DNA of 64,000 nucleotides from Nitrospira tepida (lineage in GTDB: Bacteria > Nitrospirota > Nitrospiria > Nitrospirales > Nitrospiraceae), in assembly GCF_947241125.1 (NCBI RefSeq), contig NZ_OX365700.1:4188461-4252460 (forward strand), given 5' to 3'. Below are positions 59,800-64,000 of the stretch, one piece after another. The notes beneath the pieces were generated by a model that saw only the letters and a program-made list of their open reading frames with translations, had not been told where the DNA came from and ran no database searches. The position numbers and the translations under genes are program-made. Positions within the stretch are counted from its first letter, which is position 1. Each line of letters begins with the position of its first letter.

Positions 59800-60660
59800 A
59801 TGAGCCAGAGCCAACCGGCTGAAGGCACAGGTTTCGCGGGGCTCCACGTCGCGGCCCTCGAAAGCCGCATGGCGGAGTCGATGGCGAACCTGATCCGCCG
59901 TTACGGCGGCGAGCCGCTGGTTGTCCCGGCGCTCCGTGAAATTCCCCTGTCCGATAACCATGCGGCGTTTGAATTCAGCGAACGCCTGTTCGTCGGACAG
60001 ATCGACGTGGTGCTGTTGCTCACCGGCGTGGGGACTCAAACCTTGGTCGAGGTGCTTGCCACGCGCCATCCGATTGAATCCATTACTCAGGCCTTGAGCC
60101 GGACGACGCTCGTCGCCAGGGGCCCGAAGCCAGTCGCTGCATTGAAGCGGCTGGGGCTGACGCCGGCTCTGGTCGTCCCGGAACCGAATACCTGGCGGGA
60201 CCTGCTAGCGGCTTTGGATCAACAGGGACCGGTCAAGGACCGACGGGTGGCGATTCAGGAGTACGGCGTGTCCAATGATGAGCTGGTCCGGGAGCTGATG
60301 GCGCGAGGCGCCCTGGTGATGCCGGTTCCGATTTATAAATGGGCGCTTCCGGAAGACACGGCCCCGCTACGCAACCTACTGACTGAGGTGACTGCCGGAA
60401 GGATCGATGTCCTGCTCGTCACCAATGCCGTGCAGGTCGAGCATGTCATGCAGGTGCTTGAAAGAGAGGGCAAGGTGGAGCCGTTTCGGACGGCGCTCAA
60501 GCGGATGGTGGTCGCTTCCATCGGCCCCACGGCCAGCGAACGGCTGCGCAGCCACGGCTGGCCCGTGGACCTGGAGCCGTCGCACCCGAAGATGGGCGTG
60601 CTGGTCAAAGAGGCCAGCGAGGCGGCATGGCGGCTGCTCCAGGGAAAGCGACCAGCATAG
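59800..60660 (+). CDS. hemD: Uroporphyrinogen-III synthase
   Basis: Cyclises hydroxymethylbilane to uroporphyrinogen III on the haem and sirohaem route. The 286 residues form the two-domain HemD fold, with VAALESRMAESMANLIRRYG, VVLLLTGVGTQTLVEVLA, LVARGPKPVAALKRLGLTPA, KDRRVAIQEYGVSNDELVRE and VVASIGPTASERLRSHGW. Family sequence identity is always low, but these motifs are diagnostic. The start is ATG 59800. Its stop lies 17 bases before a fragment of 5S rRNA. No other hem genes are adjacent. Confidence 0.92.
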   Translation: MSQSQPAEGTGFAGLHVAALESRMAESMANLIRRYGGEPLVVPALREIPLSDNHAAFEFSERLFVGQIDVVLLLTGVGTQTLVEVLATRHPIESITQALSRTTLVARGPKPVAALKRLGLTPALVVPEPNTWRDLLAALDQQGPVKDRRVAIQEYGVSNDELVRELMARGALVMPVPIYKWALPEDTAPLRNLLTEVTAGRIDVLLVTNAVQVEHVMQVLEREGKVEPFRTALKRMVVASIGPTASERLRSHGWPVDLEPSHPKMGVLVKEASEAAWRLLQGKRPA

Positions 60661-60676
60661 GATGAGCGTCTGACTA

Positions 60677-60755
60677 CCGAACACGGAAGTGAAGCCCCCA
60701 ACGCCGATGCGACTGCTGCCGTGAGGCAGTGGGAAGGTAGGACGCTGCCGGGGTT
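60677..60755 (+). pseudogene. 3' fragment of 5S rRNA
   Basis: Matches the 3' two-thirds of bacterial 5S rRNA: CCGAACACGGAAGTGAAGC, the CGCCGATG loop, a hairpin CTGCC-GTGA-GGCAG (helix IV), and GGTAGGACGCTGCCGGG at the end. The first 40 or so nucleotides expected (5' half of helix I, helix II) are missing, and upstream is hemD. It is therefore a truncated copy rather than a working gene, directly followed by a terminator. No 16S or 23S is in the window. Confidence 0.75.
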
Positions 60756-60814
60756 CAAAAGGGCCTGTTGGATCTCACGATCCGACAGGCCTTTTTCTTT
60801 TGAACCCCGGCAGC
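60744..60814. repeat. 17-bp inverted copies of the 5S 3' end around a terminator
   Basis: GCTGCCGGGGTTCAAAA (60744-60760) is repeated in perfect inverted form at 60798-60814, enclosing the terminator hairpin. The outer arm overlaps the 5S fragment, so part of the rRNA end exists in both orientations. Confidence 0.8.
60762..60800 (+). terminator. Rho-independent terminator after the 5S fragment
   Basis: GGCCTGTTGGAT (60762-60773) pairs with ATCCGACAGGCC (60780-60791), with one G-T pair and a 6-base loop, followed by TTTTTCTTTT. This is typical of the end of an rRNA operon. Confidence 0.88.
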
Positions 60815-60938
60815 GCCGACTCCTCCTTTCCACGAAGAAAGTCGAAGGGTTTTCTCCGGCGACGTAGATTACGATAAAGCGATGAAGAGTAGCCGGCACA
60901 AGCAAGCTTGGTTTGGACCTCTGCCGGGTTACAACAAA

Positions 60939-60976
60939 GGCCCGCTGGTCGAAAGATCAGCGGGCCTTTTTCTTTT
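60939..60976 (+). terminator. Second strong terminator
   Basis: GGCCCGCTGGTC (60939-60950) pairs with GATCAGCGGGCC (60955-60966) across GAAA, followed by TTTTTCTTTT. CTGCCGGGTT just upstream again resembles a 5S 3' end, so this may be a second decayed copy of the same rRNA-end module. Confidence 0.85.
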
Positions 60977-61138
60977 CCCGGGAGGAGAGGCGAGGGCAGC
61001 CTGGTCAATCGGATTGCGATCGAAGCGGGCGGTGCTCGTTGGACGCGCGCACGGCGGGGATCAACCAGGCCACCCTCGCTCAGACACCGAAAAGAAACGG
61101 CCTGCTCGGATTTGCGGTTCCGGCCTTCAGCCCAAATC
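60977..61138. other. Intergenic stretch without a gene
   Basis: A short remnant region between the second terminator and the first inverted-repeat element. Several short open frames cross it, but none has an SD or a recognisable protein pattern. Confidence 0.4.
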
Positions 61139-61336
61139 GGGTCAGGTCTTGCAGCCACACATTCTCTGTTGACCATAGCTCCACTACACCCCATCTTGAG
61201 TCTGGGTTATGCCGAGGAATGCAAGGCGCCCTTGTCGTCGATTCGTGAGGCTGCTGAGACGAGGGCACGGACGCGAAACAGCAGGACAAGTCAAGCGGAC
61301 TACTAATGCGCAGTGTGTGATTGCAAGACCTGCCCC
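61139..61336. mobile_element. MITE-like element 1 with ~22-bp terminal inverted repeats
   Basis: A 198-bp segment whose ends are inverted copies: the left end (61139-61160) and the reverse complement of the right end (61315-61336) match at 19 of 22 positions, with core CAGGTCTTGCA. It carries no coding sequence. The same core recurs at both ends of the segment 62451-62639. Confidence 0.55.
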
Positions 61337-61493: not shown

Positions 61494-61811
61494 TCAGACA
61501 GCTCGATGCCTGTTGGATCCTGAAGTGAGGTTGATGGCCATTCGTCCTCCACAGGCACGAACGATTCTCTGAAGTGTGCGAAGCTCATACCGGTTGTAGT
61601 CCGCGTTTTCGTAGCGACTTATTGCAGAGGCGGTGGTTTTCGCTCGCTGGGCGACCTGGGCCTGAGTCAAGCCGGCCTCTCGGCGCAGTCGGGTTAACTG
61701 CTCTCCGATCGCCAACCTCTGTAATTCTTCTTCAAATCCTCGACGGAAGCTGGGGTTGGCGAGCTTTCTATTGAGCCACCCTTTGCCCCCGCGGCTTGGT
61801 TTCGACTTCAT
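61494..61811 (-). CDS. higA: HigA-type antitoxin, XRE-family HTH
   Basis: A 105-residue protein with a helix-turn-helix in the middle to C-terminal part (LTRLRREAGLTQAQVAQRAK, TTASAISRYENADYNRYELR), as in antitoxins of HigBA/RelBE-like pairs. The gene order is toxin first, antitoxin second, the HigBA arrangement. Its ATG at 61811 overlaps the toxin's stop by four bases (ATGA). It should neutralise the toxin and repress the promoter, probably through the palindrome at 62221-62234. Confidence 0.85.
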   Translation of the reverse strand: MKSKPSRGGKGWLNRKLANPSFRRGFEEELQRLAIGEQLTRLRREAGLTQAQVAQRAKTTASAISRYENADYNRYELRTLQRIVRACGGRMAINLTSGSNRHRAV

Positions 61812-62149
61812 GTTCGACCTCCTCGCTCGAATTCTCGCTTACATGCCTCAGTTCGTTCAATTTCGCCTTTAGGAGTCTTGTCTCCCGCCTTCCTAAACCC
61901 ATGCGTCAGTATCAGCCTCTTGCCAACGAAGAAGAAACACAGGACGCGATCTGCCTCAACCTTGAACTCGAAAATCTTATCCGTTCCGGTCAAATGCTTG
62001 AACTTGTGTTCATTCCAGATCTTCCCGGTATCTCCCATCCGAACGAACAGCGCGGCGAATTTCTGTTGGCTTGCAAGCGGCATCTGTTCCAGCCATTCCT
62101 CGGCGGGTGCCGTCCCACCGTGAGTAACGTAGAACTCAATGCTGAGCAT
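61808..62149 (-). CDS. higB: HigB-type toxin (phage-derived Gp49-like / RelE superfamily)
   Basis: A 113-residue protein matching the Gp49-like/HigB family: IEFYVTHGGTAPAEEWLEQM, KHLTGTDKIFEFKVEADRVL, CFFFVGKRLILTHGFRKAGD, ending in a basic tail. Such toxins are ribosome-dependent mRNA endoribonucleases. I start at ATG 62149 (MLSIEFYV), where the family begins. An in-frame ATG at 62203 adds 18 unrelated residues. It is translationally coupled to the antitoxin. Confidence 0.85.
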   Translation of the reverse strand: MLSIEFYVTHGGTAPAEEWLEQMPLASQQKFAALFVRMGDTGKIWNEHKFKHLTGTDKIFEFKVEADRVLCFFFVGKRLILTHGFRKAGDKTPKGEIERTEACKREFERGGRT

Positions 62150-62220
62150 GGCACCGCGGTAGACGAGCCGAGTGGACGAATGTCTACCGGCCGGATTCGC
62201 CATGCTGTCTGGATACGATA

Positions 62221-62234: not shown

Positions 62235-62292
62235 CTACACGCTCAAGATGGACAGCCTACGCAAAGACAAATGGGGTTGGGAATCTTTGTTT

Positions 62293-62346
62293 GAAGAGGT
62301 TTGCTTGAAGAGGTTTGCTTGAAGAGGTTTGCTTGAAGAGGTCTTG
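62293..62346 (+). repeat. Tandem 14-bp repeat
   Basis: The unit GAAGAGGTTTGCTT is repeated three times exactly at 62293-62334 with a fourth partial copy. It lies just upstream of the higBA promoter in non-coding DNA. Confidence 0.9.
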
Positions 62347-62450: not shown

Positions 62451-62639
62451 TGGTCTTGCAATAACACATGCCGAGATTACCCTCGGACCCTGTGAGTCAG
62501 TGGCCAACTGGGTTCTGTTCATTCTGAGCGCGCGCCGCTGATTTCGTGTTGCATTCGTTGTGACAATCGGCACAATTCATGATCAAGTAACTCGGTGAGT
62601 GGGCGGGCAAAGAGAGGGACGTGCGATTGCAAGACCCTC
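62451..62639. mobile_element. MITE-like element 2 with related terminal inverted repeats
   Basis: A 189-bp non-coding segment whose ends (62451-62467 and 62621-62637, the latter reversed) match at 14 of 17 positions and share the TTGCAAGACC core of element 1. The two elements lie on either side of higBA. It includes a few short open frames with no supported gene. Confidence 0.5.
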
Positions 62640-62695: not shown

Positions 62696-62956
62696 TCAGA
62701 ATCCTACAAGAAGTTCAGAAGCAGTCTGGTAGATCGCAGGGCGGTCGCGCGGCTTGGGGATGGGTTTCCGTTCCGCCTTGGCACTCTGTAGCCAGAGCCG
62801 CTTTGCTAACTGAACTTGCTTCAGTGCCTCAGCAGGAGTCTTGCCAAATGCGGAACCGGCTTGGAGGTCCGGGATGTCGGCAACGTAGCCGCCATCTGCC
62901 TCACTGTAAAAAATGTTGATGTGGTAGTCCTTCCTGTTCACTCTGCGTCGTGCCAT
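62696..62956 (-). CDS. HicB-like antitoxin (orphan)
   Basis: An 86-residue HicB-family protein: HINIFYSEADGGYVADIPDL, GSAFGKTPAEALKQVQLAKR and PIPKPRDRPAIYQTASELLV. The HicB domain is a degraded RNase H fold that neutralises HicA toxins. No HicA-sized frame with the GSHH-type motif is adjacent on either side, so the partner is missing or elsewhere. ATG 62956 fits the family start. A longer frame to 63028 adds unrelated residues. It lies in the same accessory island as higBA. Confidence 0.8.
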   Translation of the reverse strand: MARRRVNRKDYHINIFYSEADGGYVADIPDLQAGSAFGKTPAEALKQVQLAKRLWLQSAKAERKPIPKPRDRPAIYQTASELLVGF

Positions 62957-63073
62957 TCTAGACCATAGCAGTAAAGCGGAGGTTTTTTGATCCTGCCAAC
63001 GCCTTCGCGAGCAGCTTGGTTTGTTCATATCCTCCGATTTGTACGTCTTTTCTCCAGATGAACCGCCTGCTCT

Positions 63074-64000
63074 TCAGGGCACGTTCTGCGACACAGGAGA
63101 CGCGGCGGCGCTCTGCTCGGCCGGCACGTCCCGCGCGCAGCGGAAGCCGAGCCAGTTCATGGAGGTCTTGGGGTCGGTCCCGTTCCGCTGGGCCACGCGC
63201 ACCGTCGGCGTGCTGTCGATCCAGCCCCCGCCGCGAAAGGCCTTATGCGTGCCGGTTTCCGGTCCCTTGGGATTCCGGTCCGGCCCGGTTTTGTAATAGT
63301 CCTTGTCGTACCAGTCCGCAACCCATTCCGCCACGTTGCCGACCATCTGGAACAGGCCGTAGGGACTCACGGCGTTGTCGTACTTGTCCACGGAGATGAT
63401 CGGCGGATAGAGCAGCAGCCGCTCCGGGCGGTCGCGGACCGGGCCGGAGAGCCCCGTTCGCCCGAAGTTCGCCCGCGTCAGCCCGGCCGGTTGATTGCCC
63501 CAGGGATAGATCCGCCCGTCCGCGCCGCGCGCCGCCTTTTCCCATTCAGCCTCGGTCGGGAGGCGCTTCCCCGCCCACTTGCAGTAGGCATCGGCTTCGA
63601 ACCAGGTGACGTGCATGATCGGATGGTTGACCATGGTCTCCTGGAAGTTCCCGCCGTCGAATTTCCAATCAACCTGTGGATCCAAATTATTGGCCAACAC
63701 GTACTTCAAATATTGGACGGTGGTCACTTCATACTTGTCGATTTCGTAGGCGTCGAGATAGATCGTTCGCTGCGGCATCTCCGCCTGGTAGGCCAGCCTA
63801 TCGACTTTCTTGTTGCTCCCCATCAGGAACTCGCCGGCCGGAATCACCACCATCTCGTCATGAGCCGGAAGCTTGATCCGTTCCGCCGCGAGCTTCTTGC
63901 CTTCCGGCGTCCACTCCTGTTTCACGTCGCCGACATCGAGGGCCCACACCAGCCCCGCCGCCGAGAGCCCCAGCCCGCACAGTCCCACCGCCACACCCGC
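63074..64000 (-). CDS. SUMF1-domain protein (5' end beyond the window)
   Basis: At least 306 residues of a SUMF1 domain protein. It has MVVIPAGEFLMGSNKKVDRL, YEIDKYEVTTVQYLKYVLAN, EADAYCKWAGKRLPTEAEWE, GLFQMVGNVAEWVADWYDKD and GFRCARDVP. The visible N terminus is a hydrophobic signal-peptide core (GLCGLGLSAAGLVWA) without the basic start expected, so the real initiation codon probably lies past base 64000. It closely resembles the protein at 58483-59352 (shared CKWAGKRLPTEAEWEKA). It is likely exported. The role is unknown, and formylglycine-generation cysteines are not evident. Confidence 0.85.
   Translation of the reverse strand, partial: AGVAVGLCGLGLSAAGLVWALDVGDVKQEWTPEGKKLAAERIKLPAHDEMVVIPAGEFLMGSNKKVDRLAYQAEMPQRTIYLDAYEIDKYEVTTVQYLKYVLANNLDPQVDWKFDGGNFQETMVNHPIMHVTWFEADAYCKWAGKRLPTEAEWEKAARGADGRIYPWGNQPAGLTRANFGRTGLSGPVRDRPERLLLYPPIISVDKYDNAVSPYGLFQMVGNVAEWVADWYDKDYYKTGPDRNPKGPETGTHKAFRGGGWIDSTPTVRVAQRNGTDPKTSMNWLGFRCARDVPAEQSAAASPVSQNVP

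Follow-up and report, generated by a model that had tools for sequence, protein, structure and literature searches.

A full-length 5S rRNA gene (RF00001) comprises helices I-V and is located after the 23S rRNA gene. Behind intact 5S genes of several Nitrospira-family relatives, the operon continues with a spacer, a terminator, the 5S end in inverted form, a CTACTTTCCACGAAGAAAGTCG stretch, and a hairpin repeat. These are followed by GGACCTCTGCCGGGTTACAA and a second terminator. A literature search of open-licence papers found no published description of this mirrored-5S-end terminator layout. Bidirectional intrinsic terminators, which are found between convergent genes, form a further point of comparison. 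Another is an orphan 5S pseudogene of N. moscoviensis that likewise stands separate from the rRNA operon, decayed, and with a terminator and an inverted 5S end.

The locus described here lies in a 64-kb stretch of the Nitrospira tepida genome, referred to as the window, and shares features with each of these systems (Table 1). Its parts follow the same order as the rRNA-operon terminator region of the Nitrospira family. However, unlike that region, the piece is detached from any rRNA operon and placed behind hemD. The most probable explanation is that the 3'-terminal stretch of a Nitrospira-family rRNA operon, at least about 450 bp long, was inserted behind hemD, where the 5S part is dead and the terminators would still be useful. 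The locus is a real but modest curiosity. It indicates that the end of an rRNA operon, together with its strong terminators, can turn up as a copy at another site and persist behind a protein gene.

Table 1. Features of the hemD-FGE interval and its borders, in window coordinates
Feature	Position	Strand	Basis or remark
Intact hemD (uroporphyrinogen-III synthase), flanking the insertion on the left	59800-60660	+	Pfam HEM4, E 2e-38
Whole rRNA-operon tail	60675-61127	+	colinear with the sequence that follows the intact 5S gene in G155
5S rRNA pseudogene fragment, 5S positions ~38-117	60675-60752	+	alignments to 5S of relatives
Perfect 19-bp inverted repeat, left arm (final 5S nucleotides and spacer)	60743-60761	+	
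First intrinsic terminator	60757-60801	+	stem 60757-60796, T-tract TTTTTCTTTT to 60801
Inverted copy of the 5S 3' end	60797-60832	+	19 bp perfect (60797-60815), imperfect to ~60832
Two-hairpin repeat, a single copy of a genome-wide dispersed set	60851-60917	+	
Second 5S-end-like stretch and second terminator	60921-60976	+	stem 60936-60969
198-bp element	61139-61336		inverted GGGTCAGGTCTTGCA-type palindromes at both ends
Probable antitoxin, an HTH (XRE-type) protein	61494-61811	-	Pfam HTH_31
HigB-like toxin candidate (Gp49/DUF891)	61808-62203	-	Pfam PF05973, E 4e-13
Second element	62452-62636		the same GGTCTTGCA palindromes at both ends
FGE-sulfatase-like gene to the right of the insertion, convergent with hemD and its ancestral neighbour	63074-63994	-	

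The fragment matches the 3' two thirds of the 5S rRNA gene. The similarity is well above what chance would give. Aligned with a consensus built from 31 distinct intact 5S genes of relatives, the fragment shows 92% identity over 77 nt (E 7e-22), and its identity to single intact genes of relatives is 86-91%. The search of the own genome aligns it with the 5S gene of G142 at 89% over 85 nt (E 2e-24). The alignments leave out the first ~37-40 nt of the 5S gene, in agreement with the preliminary description, which had reported a truncated 5S without its first ~40 nt. Neither the 5' half nor any other significant 5S-like piece is found within the window. A permuted or split 5S is rejected, since no 5' half lies in the window. 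The Rfam 5S model (cmscan) gives no 5S match in the window even at E<=5, as expected of a fragment embedded in longer sequence. The weak Rfam matches that do appear (miRNAs, ctRNA, CopA) are below gathering and are driven by the hairpin. The fragment thus departs from a full-length 5S gene in lacking positions 1-37 and an RF00001 match, and it begins 14 nt past the stop codon of hemD rather than after a 23S rRNA gene. Moreover, it differs at five positions that are invariant across the 31 intact 5S genes and therefore behaves as a dead pseudogene.

The DNA that follows the fragment also derives from an rRNA operon. The tail of the intact 5S gene in G155 matches the window colinearly at 80% over 333 bp (60675-61007, E 3e-78), and a further match covers 61045-61127 (74% over 83 bp). 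This colinearity identifies the whole ~450 bp as an rRNA-operon tail cut inside the 5S gene. The second copy of the 5S end with its terminator, which had been noted earlier at 60920-60976, is confirmed at a start one position further on; it is 96% identical to the true 5S end and terminator of G024.

The genes on both sides clarify how this tail came to lie where it does. The end of hemD matches the hemD end in relatives. In seven of these (L066, L067, L068, L069, L072, L075, and L078), a convergent FGE gene lies 25-230 nt behind hemD, and it is 74-80% identical to the one in the window. The FGE gene is 0.5-1 kb behind hemD in L079, L083, and L088. The gap here is 2.4 kb, with the same order and orientation as in relatives. 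The extra DNA consists of the rRNA tail, two palindrome-bounded elements, and the HTH/HigB-like pair. Because the ancestral order and orientation of hemD and the FGE gene are kept, the change was an insertion (or the insertion of an operon that has since been deleted) and not an inversion. Comparison with relatives establishes the insertion, and its route is inferred. The donor may have been the resident rRNA operon or one of another Nitrospira lineage. The inserted piece would start inside the 5S gene, 14 bp past the hemD stop, between hemD and the FGE gene. Neither a target duplication nor a clean right boundary was found at the insertion. The accessory island proposed earlier is present as a small accessory block, with the HigB-like/HTH pair adjoining the fragment. 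A small protein gene at 62696-63028 is probably older, since its relatives adjoin hemD in L071 and L079.

Alternatively, the interval between hemD and the FGE gene may once have held a complete extra rRNA operon, most of which was lost in a deletion that began just past hemD and ended within the 5S gene. Such a deletion in place would account for a remnant that is exactly the operon 3' flank and for a missing part that stops abruptly inside the 5S. However, no rRNA is located near hemD in any relative examined, and most genomes have a single 5S. The hemD flanks of 29 relatives yielded no 5S similarity, and in finished relatives hemD and the rRNA are far apart (4.26 versus 1.28 Mb in G079; 0.75 versus 2.39 Mb in G001). 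This course of events is therefore unlikely, and insertion of a tail already cut inside the 5S gene is preferred.

The inverted repeat does not require a rearrangement at this site. Its arms (60743-60761 and 60797-60815) are 35 nt apart and enclose the terminator hairpin. The repeat and the terminator inside it were correctly recognized in the preliminary description, but the perfect repeat is 19 bp long rather than 17 bp. The same arrangement is found behind intact genes; for instance, G002 has a perfect 20-bp inverted 5S end around its intact 5S. When 58 tails were scored by local alignment against shuffles, 14 of them had the 5S end in inverted form past the terminator (p<=0.01). These 14 are the present locus, the decayed N. 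moscoviensis orphan (L095), and 12 intact genes. Since several relatives carry this layout after an intact 5S, both the inverted repeat and the second 5S-end copy are inherited from the operon tail and are not scars.

This result bears directly on the earlier view that the locus is the scar of an rRNA-operon recombination, duplication, or inversion. On that reading, rRNA operons underwent an inversion or exchange with a breakpoint here, of which the inverted repeat is the trace. Such an event could indeed place a partial rRNA gene next to an inverted copy of its own end. However, the same inverted copy and second terminator stand behind intact 5S genes elsewhere, and the flanking genes retain their ancestral order and orientation, which makes a breakpoint very unlikely. 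More generally, an inverted repeat next to a broken rRNA gene need not mean a rearrangement scar.

With the insertion of an operon tail as the preferred history, its present role can be considered. Two hairpins with a G+C-rich stem-loop and a T-run (TTTTTCTTTT) are present, as in intrinsic terminators. Both have kept an intact sequence and follow hemD directly. RNA folding gives z-scores of -11 and -6 for the terminator hairpins; the former value belongs to the long hairpin at 60741-60820, whose folding energy is -62.7 kcal/mol. The first terminator would sit at the tip of this long hairpin, in which the 3' end of 5S pairs with the inverted copy of that end. The two strong intrinsic terminators would end hemD transcripts coming from the left. 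Owing to the symmetric A/T tracts, transcripts of the converging HTH/HigB-like pair would be at least partly stopped as well, although the first hairpin, read in the antisense direction, has a short T-tract (CTTTTG). When 30 genomes were put through a simple terminator scan, the present one alone had a terminator within 220 nt behind hemD. The A-tract before and the T-tract after the hairpins, together with the converging gene pair, make a two-way terminator the most likely role, and the locus would thus function at present as a double, probably bidirectional, predicted terminator for hemD. It resembles a bidirectional intrinsic terminator between convergent genes in its G+C-rich hairpins, its A-tract and T-tract, and its position between hemD and the HTH/HigB-like genes. 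Unlike the usual form, the predicted terminator is built from rRNA sequence and is extended by a 19-bp outer stem.

The very stable structure might also be read as a functional small RNA, such as a decoy or an antisense 5S regulator, because the minus strand would offer ~80 nt complementary to 5S. Antisense transcription could come from the converging gene pair, and in tobacco plastids an antisense RNA to 5S (AS5) can destabilise 5S (PMC3017836). However, no promoter-like site was found, the 5S part is decaying at invariant positions, and the feature is not conserved at hemD in relatives. A small RNA is thus highly improbable. Least credible is an assembly error fusing hemD to a real rRNA-operon end, given that the fragment is unlike every intact 5S at invariant positions and that the genome is a single contig of 4.73 Mb (with the window at G000:C1:4188461-4252460), on which hemD is followed by the inserted block and, on its far side, by the FGE gene as the ancestral neighbour.

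The mirrored 5S end itself deserves attention as a little-noticed feature of Nitrospira-family bacteria, in which it lies past the rRNA terminator. Several genera have it, and in a few genomes differing spacer letters are matched by differing inverted letters. Covariation of the repeat arms reaches 1/20000 on 18 tails, a biased figure because these tails were picked for having the repeat. Across all 64 tails, the arm alignment scores give about 6-7%, or 6-12% with unique spacers, which is suggestive. The count of exact 9-mers in the 64 tails is 5, compared with a permuted mean of 1.3 and a maximum of 4 in 2000 permutations. Given the biased choice of the 18 tails and an all-tail test that is only suggestive, coevolution of the arms is not claimed. 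A tentative and rather doubtful idea is that several genera place the rRNA terminator at the tip of a large hairpin whose mirror is kept by selection, either as a two-way barrier against antisense transcription of 5S or as a trap that disables read-through 5S, and that this device has been reused behind hemD.

The N. moscoviensis orphan (L095:3230-3345; G079:C1 ~2169229-2169344) differs from the window fragment in being nearly full length (60.9 bits to RF00001) and in its genomic site. Its terminator resembles those of G155 and G170 rather than the one in its own operon, a hint of foreign origin. Further 5S fragments outside intact genes are found in L102 (G022:C3:241783-241845) and L098 (G142:C51 ~16840). 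The G022 fragment, too, starts near GAACACGG, close to where the window fragment is broken.

The two palindrome-bounded elements flank the HTH/HigB-like pair, one on each side. Palindromes of the GGGTCAGGTCTTGCA type also occur in the own genome beside the Y1_Tnp matches L184 and L187-L189, as well as behind rRNA operons of relatives. As in REP/RAYT-type systems, the palindrome pairs are also present around the genome's Y1 (IS200-like) transposases. Their distribution suggests that the palindromic elements may have helped to move or join the inserted pieces. A tandem 14-nt repeat, TTTGCTTGAAGAGG, occupies window positions 62272-62341.

The two-hairpin repeat within the operon tail belongs to a dispersed set. 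The ~68-nt unit shows strong compensatory changes, with seven pairs changed on both sides (0 of 500 shuffles), and it has no Rfam match, either in the window or in L030. At least 143 matches occur in the genome, obtained from 150 scored candidates out of 2720. The copies are often in tandem at a spacing of ~95 nt. They also often lie just upstream of start codons, where the end of the repeat gives a GGAGG-like stretch, or near tRNA genes. About 20 of the genome matches form a tight group of exactly 54 nt at ~40 bits, which is probably a separate repeat family.
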